Origin: Brevibacterium yomogidense
GTDB lineage: Bacteria > Actinomycetota > Actinomycetes > Actinomycetales > Brevibacteriaceae
Assembly (NCBI RefSeq): GCF_016107685.1
Contig: NZ_JABASY010000001.1
Span: forward strand, 710,187 to 774,186
Direction of reading: 5' to 3'
DNA length: 64,000 nt
Within the stretch, counting starts at the first letter, position 1, and each line of letters begins with the position of its first letter. The translations under genes and the position numbers were made by a program. The notes beneath the pieces were generated by a model that worked only from the letters and a program-made list of their open reading frames with translations, was not told the origin of the DNA and did not search any database. Of this stretch, positions 6,582-61,668 are shown one piece after another.

Positions 6582-7515
6582 CTCGACCCTCGCCCGCGAC
6601 ACACCGCCGCCCGCCTCAGCAGCGCCATCGCGGGTCCCACCAGCCGAAGATCCGCCCCCGGCGGCGGAGGAGCATCGCAGCGACGCGAAGCGGGTCGTAC
6701 GCTCGATCCTCAAGCACGTCGCCCTCATCGTCGTCGGCGGGATCATGATCTATCCCCTCCTGTGGATGGTCGCGAGCTCTCTTCGACCCAACGACATCAT
6801 CTTCCGGGAGCCGGGCGTTCTTCTGGAGACCCTCGAGACGAGCAACTACTCGGACGGTTGGAACGCACTGTCCAACCCGTTCGGGGTGTACCTGTTCAAC
6901 TCCGCGGTCGTCGTGCTCGGGTGCATCATCGGAAACCTGGTGGCCTGCTCGATGGCTGCGTACGCTTTCGCCCGGCTGGACTTCCGGTTCAAGAAGACGG
7001 CGTTCGCGCTCATGCTGCTGACGATCATGCTGCCGTTCCACGTCGTCATCGTGCCGCAGTACATCATGTTCTCCCAGATCGGTTGGGTGAACACGTTCTG
7101 GCCGCTCATCGTGCCGAAGCTCCTCGCGACGGACGCGTTCTTCATCTTCCTCATGGTGCAGTTCATCCGGGGGATCCCCACGGACATGGATGAGGCGGCA
7201 CGGATCGACGGGGCGGGCCACGCACGGATCTTCGGGCAGATCATCCTCCCGATGATGGTCCCCGCCCTCGCGACGACGACGATCTTCACGTTCATCTGGA
7301 CGTGGAACGACTTCTTCAGCGCCCTCATCTACCTGACAGATCCCGACATGTTCACGGTCCCGGTGGCGCTGCGGGCCTTCGTGGACGCAACCGGTGAGTC
7401 CTCGTGGGGTTCGCTGTTCGCCATGTCGATCGTCTCTCTGCTCCCCGTCTTCATCGCCTTCCTCGTGGGACAGAAGTTCCTCGTCAAGGGCATCGCGACG
7501 ACCGGCATCAAGTGA
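6574..7515 (+). CDS. ABC sugar transporter permease, MalG/UgpE type
   Basis: A 313-residue partner permease. A Pro/Ala-rich cytoplasmic N-terminus of about 40 residues precedes six predicted transmembrane helices (first one near IVVGGIMIYPLLWMVASSL). The EAA loop reads MDEAARIDGAGHARIFGQII near residue 206. It starts inside the end of the upstream permease gene (ATGACTGA overlap), which implies coupled translation and a heterodimeric channel. The next gene, a Gfo/Idh protein, follows after 67 bases. Confidence 0.92.
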   Translation: MTDSTLARDTPPPASAAPSRVPPAEDPPPAAEEHRSDAKRVVRSILKHVALIVVGGIMIYPLLWMVASSLRPNDIIFREPGVLLETLETSNYSDGWNALSNPFGVYLFNSAVVVLGCIIGNLVACSMAAYAFARLDFRFKKTAFALMLLTIMLPFHVVIVPQYIMFSQIGWVNTFWPLIVPKLLATDAFFIFLMVQFIRGIPTDMDEAARIDGAGHARIFGQIILPMMVPALATTTIFTFIWTWNDFFSALIYLTDPDMFTVPVALRAFVDATGESSWGSLFAMSIVSLLPVFIAFLVGQKFLVKGIATTGIK

Positions 7516-28302: not shown

Positions 28303-28516
28303 GACCGAAGCGTAACCGGGCACTGTGCGCAGTGGTCCTCCCACGCCGAACCATCCGATCCGCGATCGGCTCCGAACCCCCCACATGGAACCCCCGAACC
28401 GCCCCCGGCACCACGGTGACGCGCACTCCCGGAGCCGCAGCGACCCGCACTCCCGGCCCCGTCGCGACCCGCGCACCTGGTTCCGCACCCCGCTCCGCAC
28501 CTGGTTCCGCAGCGGG

Positions 28517-30154
28517 ATGCGCCCACAGACCCGGACCCGAGCCTTCGCCTCAGGGCTCGCAGCGACGCTCGTCTTCCTCGGCACCGCGGACGTGCTCGCC
28601 CGCCTGCTGGGGGCCTCGACGTCCCCGCTCACCGCGGTGGGTCTGCTGGTCATCCGCGTGATGCCGACCGATCTCGTGAAGCTCGCCATCTCCCTCTTCG
28701 GGGAGGCGGACAAGCTGGTCCTCGTCCTCTCCGTGGGGCTCGCGGGGCTGGTGATCGGCGGGTTTGCGGGGCTCCTCCTCCGCACCCGGCCCCGGACCGC
28801 ACTGCTCGCCCTCACCGCCGCCGAGGCCGCACTCACCCTCCTCGTCGCCCTCCGCCCCGAATCCGGGGCCGGCGACGTCATCGCCGCGGCGCTGGGTGCT
28901 GTGCTGGGCGCGTTCGCGTTCCTGCTGCTCCTGCGCGCCGGGACCGGTTACCGGTCCGGAGGACACCCGAACTCGCGGGTCCTCCGCACCAGTAACCGGT
29001 CCCCGGAGGATGACGGGCGCGATGGGCGTGGCGGACTCGACGGACGCGACGGACCCGCCGGGCGCGGGGGGAGTGGTGCCCCGACGGGGAGGCGCGGCTT
29101 CTTCACCCTGGCGGGGGCGGCGGTGCTCGTGGGGTCGGTGGGGATCGCGTGCGGGCGGACGATCACCGCAGTGGGCAAGGGCGCGGCGGAAGCGGCCCGT
29201 CGCATCGTGCTCCCGGCGCCGGCGGTGCCCGCACCCGCGGTGCCGGACGGCGCGGAGGTGGGCGTGGACGGGGTCGCGCCCTTCACGACGGCGCAGGAGG
29301 ACCTCTATCGGATCGACACGGCGCTCGTGCCGCCCAGCATCGATCCGGACACGTGGGAGCTGCGGGTCGACGGGCTGGTCGAGGAGCCCTTCACCCTCAC
29401 GTTCGACGACCTGCTGGCGATGCGGCTGGAAGAACACCGCATCACGCTCACCTGCGTGTCCAACCCGGTGGGCGGCGACCTGCTGGGGACGGGCACGTGG
29501 ACCGGCATGCCGATCCGTGAACTGCTGGACCGTGCGGGCGTTCTGCCGGAGGCGGACATGGTGCTGTCGCACTCGATCGACGGGTTCACGGCCTCGACCC
29601 CGCTCGAGGCGATGACGGACGACCGCGCCTCCCTCGTCGCGGTGGGCATGAACGGGGAACCGCTCACGGAGGTGCACGGCTTCCCCGCACGCCTCATCGT
29701 GCCGGGGCTCTACGGGTTCGTGTCCGCGACGAAATGGGTGACGCGGATCGAGGTCACCCGGTTCGACCGGGCGGAGGCGTACTGGACGCAGCGGGGATGG
29801 GACGCGGAGGCGCCGATCCTCGTCGCTTCCCGGATCGACGTGCCGCGGGGGCTGGAGAAGATGAGCGCCGGTGATGTCGTCGTCGCAGGATCGGCGTGGG
29901 CGCAGCAGCACGGGGTGGAGTCCGTGGAGGTGCGGCTGGACGACGGCGACTGGCAGTCCGCGGACGTGGGTGCGGAGGCGAACATCGACTCGTGGCGGCA
30001 GTGGCGCATGACGCTCGCGGACGTGGAGCCCGGCCGGCACTCCGTCACGGTGCGGGCCACCGACCGCAGCGGGACCGTGCAGACGGACGAGCGCCGCGAC
30101 CCCATCCCGAACTCGGCCACAGGCCATCACCGCGTCGAGTTCCGCGTGGAGTGA
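28517..30154 (+). CDS. Molybdopterin-dependent oxidoreductase, sulfite oxidase-like, membrane-anchored
   Basis: About 545 residues from the ATG at 28517. Three or four N-terminal transmembrane helices (first: FASGLAATLVFLGTADVLA) precede a low-complexity linker and another hydrophobic segment GFFTLAGAAVLVGSVGIACG. Then comes a sulfite-oxidase-type Mo-cofactor domain with the molybdenum-ligand Cys in ITLTCVSNPVGGDLL and FPARLIVPGLYGFVSATKWV, and a C-terminal dimerisation domain. The start is uncertain: the frame stays open back to 28325, and the extra Arg/Pro/His-rich codons contain a repeated GCACCTGGTTCCGCA. The linker carries a 64-nt palindromic element (28940-29003). Electron partner and substrate are unknown. 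Confidence 0.88.
   Translation: MRPQTRTRAFASGLAATLVFLGTADVLARLLGASTSPLTAVGLLVIRVMPTDLVKLAISLFGEADKLVLVLSVGLAGLVIGGFAGLLLRTRPRTALLALTAAEAALTLLVALRPESGAGDVIAAALGAVLGAFAFLLLLRAGTGYRSGGHPNSRVLRTSNRSPEDDGRDGRGGLDGRDGPAGRGGSGAPTGRRGFFTLAGAAVLVGSVGIACGRTITAVGKGAAEAARRIVLPAPAVPAPAVPDGAEVGVDGVAPFTTAQEDLYRIDTALVPPSIDPDTWELRVDGLVEEPFTLTFDDLLAMRLEEHRITLTCVSNPVGGDLLGTGTWTGMPIRELLDRAGVLPEADMVLSHSIDGFTASTPLEAMTDDRASLVAVGMNGEPLTEVHGFPARLIVPGLYGFVSATKWVTRIEVTRFDRAEAYWTQRGWDAEAPILVASRIDVPRGLEKMSAGDVVVAGSAWAQQHGVESVEVRLDDGDWQSADVGAEANIDSWRQWRMTLADVEPGRHSVTVRATDRSGTVQTDERRDPIPNSATGHHRVEFRVE
28940..29003 (+). repeat. 64-nt palindromic element, copy A, inside the molybdopterin oxidoreductase gene
   Basis: The 64 bases form a nearly complete stem-loop: GGGACCGGTTACCGGTC at the left pairs with the right arm ending GTAACCGGTCCC, and GGAGGAC pairs with GTCCTCC nearer the loop. 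The left arm is itself palindromic (GGACCGGT, T, ACCGGTCC). It matches copy B at 60697-60760 at 55 of 64 positions with no gaps. It is read in frame as GTGYRSGGHPNSRVLRTSNR plus Ser, in a linker between the membrane part and the catalytic domain. Confidence 0.85.
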
Positions 30155-33494: not shown

Positions 33495-33531
33495 AGGGCG
33501 GGACCGGCGCACGATGCACCGGTCCCGCCCT
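33495..33531. terminator. Hairpin terminator after rskA
   Basis: AGGGCGGGACCGG pairs perfectly with CCGGTCCCGCCCT around an 11-base loop, followed by TCTGATCT. It lies between the convergent rskA and tctA genes. Confidence 0.85.
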
Positions 33532-53180: not shown

Positions 53181-53228
53181 GCCACCCCTGCACGGGTGGC
53201 CCGACCGCGTCGTGGGTGCGATCGGGCC
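53181..53228. terminator. Paired hairpins after the LPXTG phosphatase gene
   Basis: GGCCCGA/TCGGGCC (53199-53228) and GCCACCC/GGGTGGC (53181-53200) lie side by side just beyond the minus-strand stop at 53237. They share two bases, so they may be alternative. Confidence 0.5.
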
Positions 53229-59932: not shown

Positions 59933-61668
59933 CCCGGACGTTCTGGTGTGAGCGGGCCTGGGTGGACGGCGCGGTCCGTGACGGCGCGCTGCTGCGGACG
60001 GATGACAGCGGCACCCTCACCGAGGTGCGCACGGGGGTGTCGGTTGGCGAGGCCTCGGCAGACGCAGGCGTCCAGCGCGTGGCCGGGATCGTGTTCCCCG
60101 GTGGGGTGAACGCGCACTCCCACGCCTTCCACCGGTTGCTGCGCGGCCGCACGCACGCGGACGGCGGCACCTTCTGGACGTGGCGCAACGTCATGTACGA
60201 CATGGCGGCACGGCTCACGCCGGAGTCCTACCGTCTGGTTGCCCGGGCAGTGTTCGCAGAGATGCTGGTCGGCGGGTGGACGAGCGTGGGCGAGTTCCAC
60301 TACGTCCACCACGCACCGGACGGCAGGCCGTACGGAACGCCGGACTGGCAGCTCAACGGAGAGCCGGGCGAGCAGCCCTACGGGGAGCCGGGCGGGCAAC
60401 CGTACGGAGAGCCGGGCGGGCGGTCTTACGGGGAGCCGGGCGGGCAACCGGACGCCCCCTTGAGGGGGGAGGAGGACGGCCAGGCGGCGGACCAGCCGCA
60501 TGCGATGGAGCTGGCGCTCGCCGCCGCCGCGGAGGACGTCGGCATCCGCGTGCGGCTCCTCGACACCTGCTACCTCACCGGCGCGATCGGTGAGGAGCTG
60601 TCGGAGGAGCAGGCGAGGTTCGGAGACGGCGACATCGACGGCTACCTCGCCCGCCACGCCTCGCTGGCGGAGGCGCTCGACAGGCGCGCCGCGCGCGGGA
60701 CCAGTTACCGGTCCGGAGGACCACCGACTTCGGGTGTCCTCCGCGCCGGTAACCGGTCCCTGGGTGGCGGGCCGCCCCGCGACCCGTTCGAGGCTGACGG
60801 GCAGGGCCTCGTGAGCCTTGGTGCTGCGATCCATTCCGTGCGCGCTGTCCCCGCTGACGCGATCGCACGGTTCACGGATCTGGAACGCCCGGTGCACATC
60901 CACCTGTCGGAGCAGCCGGCTGAGAACGAGGCGTGCCGCGCGGCGTATGGGCGTACTCCCACGGGAGTCCTCCAAGACGCTGGCGTCCTGGGGCCGCACC
61001 TGTCGCCGATCCACGCCACGCACCTCACGGACGACGACATCGCCGCTCTGGGTGCGGCGGGCACGACCATCGTCATGTGCCCCACGACGGAAGCGGACCT
61101 GGCCGACGGGATCGGCCCGGGGCTCGAACTCGCGGACGCCGGCGCGACGATCGCCCTGGGTTCCGACCAGCACGTCGTCCTCGACGCACTGCGGGAACTG
61201 CAGGCTCTCGAAGCGGGGGAGCGCCTGCGATCGGGTGTGCGCGGCCGGTTCACTCCCGCGCAGCTCATCGAAGCGGCGACGACAGGCGGAGCCCGCAGCC
61301 TCGACCTTCCCGTCGGGGCGCTCGAGGTGGGGCGCGCGTGCGACTTCATCGCCGTCGACCCTCTGAGCCCCCGGACCTACGGTTCGGTGGGGGAGCAGGT
61401 GGTGCTGGCCGGGACCTCGGCGGATGTGCACACGGTCGTGACGGCCGGGCGCGTGCGGGTGCGCGACGGGATCCACGAGCAGCTGGGTGATCTCAGCGCG
61501 CTGTACCGCGAGGCGTACGCGGCGGTCGGGCACACGATTGGTGACGCCGGTAGCGGCGTGGATACGGCCAGTGGTCCGGATTCGGGCGGTGGCACGGATA
61601 CTGAGGCTGCGGATTCGGGCGGTGGCGCCGAGGCTGAGGGCGGCGTTGAGGCAGAGGCGTCGGCGTGA
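59929..61668 (+). CDS. hutF: Formimidoylglutamate deiminase with inserted repeats
   Basis: A 579-residue amidohydrolase, against about 450-470 for the family. Core motifs are NAHSHAFHRLLRGRTHADGG near residue 62, TSVGEFHYVHHAPDG near 120, VHIHLSEQPAENEACRAAYG near 323, the His in IHATHLTDDDIAALG, and IALGSDQHVVLDALRELQAL near 408. Three additions explain the extra length: four 8-residue repeats (145-176), a peptide encoded by the 64-nt palindromic element (257-277), and a Gly/Ser/Ala/Asp-rich tail after about 535. It makes N-formylglutamate and ammonia. GTGA overlaps occur at both ends. Confidence 0.93.
   Translation: MTRTFWCERAWVDGAVRDGALLRTDDSGTLTEVRTGVSVGEASADAGVQRVAGIVFPGGVNAHSHAFHRLLRGRTHADGGTFWTWRNVMYDMAARLTPESYRLVARAVFAEMLVGGWTSVGEFHYVHHAPDGRPYGTPDWQLNGEPGEQPYGEPGGQPYGEPGGRSYGEPGGQPDAPLRGEEDGQAADQPHAMELALAAAAEDVGIRVRLLDTCYLTGAIGEELSEEQARFGDGDIDGYLARHASLAEALDRRAARGTSYRSGGPPTSGVLRAGNRSLGGGPPRDPFEADGQGLVSLGAAIHSVRAVPADAIARFTDLERPVHIHLSEQPAENEACRAAYGRTPTGVLQDAGVLGPHLSPIHATHLTDDDIAALGAAGTTIVMCPTTEADLADGIGPGLELADAGATIALGSDQHVVLDALRELQALEAGERLRSGVRGRFTPAQLIEAATTGGARSLDLPVGALEVGRACDFIAVDPLSPRTYGSVGEQVVLAGTSADVHTVVTAGRVRVRDGIHEQLGDLSALYREAYAAVGHTIGDAGSGVDTASGPDSGGGTDTEAADSGGGAEAEGGVEAEASA
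60361..60456 (+). repeat. Four 24-bp tandem repeats in hutF
   Basis: Units at 60361-60384, 60385-60408, 60409-60432 and 60433-60456, of the type GAGCCGGGCGGGCAACCGTA plus four bases, encode EPGGQPYG and variants. The preceding codons (GRPYG) look like a seed for the repeat. Confidence 0.88.
60697..60760 (+). repeat. 64-nt palindromic element, copy B, inside hutF
   Basis: It is the same element as at 28940-29003: 55 of 64 bases identical, same length, same orientation relative to the gene. The outer arms GGGACCAGTTACCGGTCC and the right arm ending GGTAACCGGTCCC pair, and GGAGGAC pairs with GTCCTCC. It is read in the same frame as copy A, giving GTSYRSGGPPTSGVLRAGNR plus Ser, between two conserved parts of HutF. 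Confidence 0.85.

Follow-up and report, generated by a model that had tools for sequence, protein, structure and literature searches.

A probable REP-like, terminator-like palindrome family in Brevibacterium and Cellulomonas with occasional copies inside proteins

Introduction

There is ample literature on dispersed palindromes from Proteobacteria, Rickettsia and pneumococcus. For Actinobacteria, our search of the open-access literature found neither a description of such repeats nor a counterpart of the family reported here, in agreement with the first-pass annotation of this DNA, which knew of none; the word actinobacteria is also absent from the text of the REP survey (PMC3733652). The GTAG- and CGTC-tagged REP/BIME sequences covered by that survey are short dispersed palindromes which form species-specific families of tens of copies, are enriched between convergent and tandem genes and occasionally lie inside genes, also outside Rickettsia. 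The family described here resembles them in these respects, but has a stem of 28 bp (5-13 bp in REPs) and a symmetric four-box layout. Where such REPs carry an unpaired tag at one end of a 20-40 bp unit with a short stem (PMC3733652), the ends are symmetric here (CGAGGGAC...GTCCCTCG), with no unpaired GTAG or CGTC tag, and there is no RAYT, which sets the family apart from RAYT-mobilised REPs. The CGTC REPs likewise lack a dedicated transposase (PMC3733652). In the broad sense of a dispersed intergenic palindrome concentrated at gene 3' ends, the family is REP-like.

Rickettsia palindromic elements (RPEs, PMC10969869) are also palindromes that occur as in-frame inserts in unrelated proteins and have relatives elsewhere. 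RPEs, however, are units of about 150 bp that code for a conserved peptide; nearly half of them are intragenic, with a high fraction in frame. Our units are 70 nt long, encode unconserved peptides and are intragenic in ~9%. Membership among the RPEs, which the first-pass annotation named as the best-known case of such protein-coding inserts, can thus be rejected because of unit size, peptide and the low share of intragenic copies. A dispersed repeat named in PMC10969869 and described in PMC3049150 resembles a terminator hairpin, as our element does; it belongs to an unrelated organism, and our family lacks a U-tract. Finally, the MITEs of bacterial insertion sequences are likewise small, dispersed inverted-repeat units without coding capacity of their own, but for our family neither an autonomous partner with matching ends nor a target-site duplication was found.

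Results

The window analysed here, a 64,000-nucleotide stretch of the Brevibacterium genome G000 (3.7 Mb), contains two palindromes within protein-coding genes, copies A and B. The boxes of copy A were placed by alignment and positional conservation, and copy B by covariance model and orthologue comparison.

28937..29006, + strand: copy A, the complete 70-nt unit (69.1 bits with covariance model R2; palindrome z -5.85)
28940-29003, + strand: 64-nt core of copy A, a near-perfect palindrome
28937..28944, + strand: outer left box of copy A, GCCGGGAC (family consensus CGAGGGAC)
28957..28964, + strand: inner left box of copy A, CGGAGGAC
28979..28986, - strand: inner right box of copy A, GTCCTCCG on the + strand
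28999..29006, - strand: outer right box of copy A, GTCCCCGG on the + strand
28325/28385-30154, + strand: host gene of copy A, membrane-anchored molybdopterin oxidoreductase (ORF; Oxidored_molyb, PF00174, Pfam 6.9e-45)
60694..60763, + strand: copy B, the complete 70-nt unit, within hutF
60697-60760, + strand: 64-nt core of copy B, a near-perfect palindrome
about 59962-61668, + strand: host gene of copy B, hutF, amidohydrolase PF01979 (Pfam)

The 64-nt palindrome first noticed in the linker of the molybdopterin oxidoreductase is real: its DNA fold has -28.2 kcal/mol as compared to -15.2 +/- 2.2 in shuffles (z -5.85, 0/200 shuffles), and its 18-nt arm has 6 matches within the window where 0.23 are expected. 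The second copy in hutF, of identical length, orientation and frame, is equally borne out, with 55/64 identical bases. Judged from the other copies, the natural unit measures 70 nt, not 64.

Copy A lies in a low-complexity linker between the membrane part of its host and PF00174, which forms the C-terminal part. In the orthologues from G038, G015 and others this linker is variable and holds no palindrome, and no counterpart of copy A was found in the relatives compared. Copy B sits in a loop of HutF; most Brevibacterium HutF orthologues have no linker at this site and no insert, but G015 (B. jeotgali) and G055 (B. yomogidense) carry orthologous 70-nt palindromes of different sequence there, and the best B. 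jeotgali match of copy B is its own orthologue. Copy B predates the divergence of its genome's lineage from these two species.

The 70-nt unit consists of box (8), 12 nt, box (8), 14 nt, box' (8), 12 nt and box' (8), with a box of about CGANNNAC occurring twice per arm. Its 28-bp stem covaries: 86.9% of the cells in the model alignment pair, both sides have changed in 16 of the 28 stem pairs, and the covariation score is 0.257 vs 0.135 in shuffled alignments, with a maximum of 0.10 on sliding. Variation is greatest in the five pairs between the boxes. Conservation stops at the outer CGA, preceded by a weak CCG. As RNA, the hairpin averages about -50 kcal/mol, equally good on both strands; its 3' flank is purine-rich without a U-tract. 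Box types vary by lineage (CGAGGGAC, CGACGGAC, CGAGAAAC), and a single genome can hold several (GGGAC type and CGAGACAC type in G000; CGAGGGAC and CGAAACAC in G055). The palindromic left arm reported before, GGACCGGT-T-ACCGGTCC, does exist, but it is confined to the sequence type of the window's genome. Almost every copy has 4-6 of its six frames open.

A consensus BLASTn with the copies of the window's genome returned no match in 56 congeners. That the repeat is private to this genome, as the empty search would suggest, is ruled out by the diverged palindrome at the orthologous hutF site; it was the reading of this site that made the diverged family detectable. The proposed search for further copies was thereby rewarded. 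G000 has six copies at the BLAST level and 8 by covariance model R2, by which we also count ~12-14 in G013, 18 in G015, 7-9 in G037, 14-17 in G038 and 8 in G055. Outside Brevibacterium, an exact-pattern search of 84,980 species together with order- and genus-level searches gave Cellulomonas G414 and G421 (Cellulomonas sp. B6), with ~15-25 copies each, and single copies elsewhere. Counting any match, the occurrence is patchy, with 12/57 Brevibacterium and 4/61 Cellulomonas-genus genomes; G050 and G054 (Brevibacterium) hold weaker relatives with weak matches only. Rfam gave 0 matches above the gathering score. Matches in G336 and G001 probably represent hairpins that do not belong to the family, three viral-contig matches were discarded as embedded in unrelated repetitive sequence, and a Microbacterium pattern match (L136) is due to chance, as there is no palindrome. 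Integron attC sites end in RYYYAAC/GTTRRRY. The ends of our units lack this motif, and an attC identity was rejected.

Two outlying forms were seen. G014, G019 and G049 carry a 68-nt relative with CGAGAAAC boxes (L193, L192, L194 among the loci L192-L194), which is probably commoner than the model could detect. The Cellulomonas-genus genome G419 (L208) has a single 68-nt copy that keeps the four-box layout with different spacers (CGAGGGACGAACTTCCGCACGAGGGACG...).

Copies within proteins occur in four host genes, namely the Mo-oxidoreductase (copy A), hutF (three species), a fused ModB-ModC transporter (G015) and a MoeZ-like ThiF-rhodanese (G000 and G015, at an identical linker position). All of them sit between domains or in a loop, and most of the congeners' host proteins are free of the insert, as the first-pass annotation had expected; this includes most other Brevibacterium ThiF-rhodanese proteins. 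The hutF and ThiF-rhodanese copies are at a matching place in two or three species and are therefore old shared insertions. One might see in such in-frame copies, which four host genes carry at linker or loop positions, a protein-coding selfish DNA like the RPEs that is selected for its coding ability. Several findings speak against it. Intragenic copies amount to only 7 of the 77 examined (~9%), and the intergenic majority largely refutes this scenario. The encoded peptides differ (RGTSYRSGG.., RGTGCWSDG.., EGQVAGSRD..), and two frames are used overall, the ModBC copy of B. jeotgali being read in another frame than A and B. Intragenic copies also decay: the G055 ModB-ModC copy has shrunk by deletion to part of one arm and the G055 ThiF-rhodanese copy is degraded. 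The unconserved peptide, the two frames and the openness in at least four of six frames make selection for the peptide unlikely, and we regard RPE-like DNA as extremely improbable. The frame shared by A and B is real, but it has little meaning given that copies are open in 4-6 frames and the ModBC copy uses another. Likewise, what had been proposed as a protein-invading repeat family holds as a dispersed repeat family, but one that is mainly intergenic, between convergent genes.

Most units are found just downstream of genes that end facing each other. Both flanking genes are known for 61 spacers that hold a copy; 39 of these spacers are convergent, 16 tandem and 6 divergent. By comparison, convergent spacers provide 14.8% of the non-coding bases. 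Since genes were called by a custom script and orthologous copies do not count independently, the p-value for this excess (39/61, p 3e-18) is too optimistic, but the excess as such is large. For the Cellulomonas copies, whose neighbours were called by a program that had no training on this genus, the contexts are mixed. Convergent spacers that lack the element tend towards strong hairpins too, with a median best 70-nt energy of -40.5, as against -30.4 in divergent and -31.2 in tandem spacers. In three compared spacers one species has the element and relatives have a different, ordinary hairpin. The third is G055 C11:162760 (other hairpin) vs G013 (element); the other two sites are:

33495..33531, no strand assigned: ordinary short hairpin in a convergent spacer, where G038 has a 70-nt family element
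53181..53227 (about), no strand assigned: ordinary hairpins, where G037/G038 have a related 61-nt palindrome and G055 yet another hairpin

The G055 spacers at the L178 and L148 sites showed no obvious hairpin, which provides at least one or two counter-examples.

The placement, together with the other hairpins in some orthologous spacers, suggests that at convergent gene ends the hairpin would most likely act as a terminator or insulator that works in both directions without a U-tract, and as a 3'-end protector. It is not a canonical intrinsic terminator, a GC-rich hairpin followed by a U-tract, since the U-tract is missing and the 3' flank is purine-rich; nor is it a general terminator, since most convergent gene pairs in these genomes lack the element. 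A further point against a terminator role is that copies persist in genes that look expressed, where a strong terminator would scarcely be tolerated. Taking all this together, it is on balance probable that we are dealing with a new low-copy actinobacterial family of REP-like, terminator-like palindromes with occasional tolerated insertions into proteins, not of the Rickettsia type.

A further scenario is a non-autonomous MITE of ~70 bp moved in trans by a putative transposase, which would land anywhere while purifying selection leaves the copies in convergent spacers and linkers. Fixed length and dispersed copies fit this picture, as do in-frame copies in unrelated proteins and the patchy occurrence (12/57 and 4/61 genomes), and the enrichment at 3' ends is also compatible with tolerated insertion sites. 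A Y1/RAYT transposase (PF01797), for which the first-pass annotation had proposed to look, is however absent from all Brevibacterium genomes (0/57, control genomes positive), a search that addresses the Y1 family. With the arm pattern (up to 2 mismatches in G015, G055 and G037) no autonomous element was found either; with three exceptions all matches are parts of 70-bp units, so that no longer element with these ends is seen. The flanks show no target-site duplication, orthologous sites being too diverged for a precise empty-site comparison, and many element sites are common to several species by vertical descent. We therefore consider a MITE unlikely.

In G000, six copies (B, C, D, E, the ThiF-rhodanese copy L156 and the L157 copy) have an element at the corresponding place elsewhere and look orthologous, the correspondence of C and D resting on adjacent regulator genes. 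Between G000 and its relatives, pairing in orthologous elements has been kept through 4-8 double changes. The six GGGACC-type copies of G000 (A-F) nevertheless share a mean of 57.7/70 positions with each other, whereas B, C, D and E share 41-49/70 with their orthologues. This greater likeness within the genome indicates concerted evolution. A likely gene conversion event is seen in G038, where two copies 774 bp apart (L170 5723-5792 and 6497-6566) differ by one base and their G013 counterparts (L183) by several. Template switching between the arms of imperfect palindromes (PMC8604942, PMC7202029) would also restore pairing neutrally, and covariation hence shows maintenance but not by itself selection. 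The match between the two copies that lie 346 bp apart in G055 extends over only 83 bp, so that they are no tandem segmental duplication. Around one element (L155, L161), proteins of B. jeotgali and B. yomogidense are ~99% identical, as compared to ~75-95% in other regions, and the element is identical at 70/70 positions; this region may be a recent transfer.

The turnover of box types could also reflect a trans-acting protein that would bind the boxes and whose specificity would drift between species, dragging all copies along. DNA-uptake-sequence dialects offer an analogy for such drift. Within an arm, the outer box co-varies with the inner one (likeness of 6.14 vs 5.90 +/- 0.06 out of 8, above all 2000 within-species shuffles), box types differ between lineages, and the main type of the window's genome is unlike that of its orthologues. 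Yet homogenisation within the element explains the box co-variation as well, several box types coexist within one genome (G000, G055), and copy number is low, all of which makes such a binding protein very unlikely in our eyes. The wider idea of a four-box palindrome recognised by a putative DNA-binding or transposase protein, with a target that shifts between species and pulls all genomic copies, strikes us as quite unlikely as well; were it true, actinobacteria would have a mobile or chromosome-organising element of a new kind, which also inserts its own sequence into protein linkers.

Discussion

We return to the REP-like, terminator-like family as our preferred scenario. Copies A and B are rare insertions into protein linkers, which would be carried as tolerated passengers. 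Such copies could persist without any protein function, since most frames of the unit are usually open and it would land in disordered linkers. Within a genome, sequence types are evidently homogenised, presumably through gene conversion, template switching between arms or both, and the colonisation of new sites would proceed without RAYT. The family is notable for its unusual four-box layout, its patchy distribution in Brevibacteriaceae and Cellulomonadaceae, the pairing kept during sequence turnover and a concerted evolution without RAYT. The orthologous HutF and ThiF-rhodanese copies offer the chance to follow palindromes fixed in proteins over species time.

Two minor observations concern individual copies. 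Copy F (L030, G000 C13, about 6744-6835) is directly followed by an extra right arm, CCGGTAACCGGTCCC, which makes a partial third arm. Furthermore, molybdenum pathways account for three of the four host genes, i.e. the Mo-oxidoreductase (window 28325-30154), ModB-ModC and the MoeZ-like ThiF-rhodanese (L144; L145; L156), a bias which is possibly due to chance or to multi-domain proteins with long linkers.
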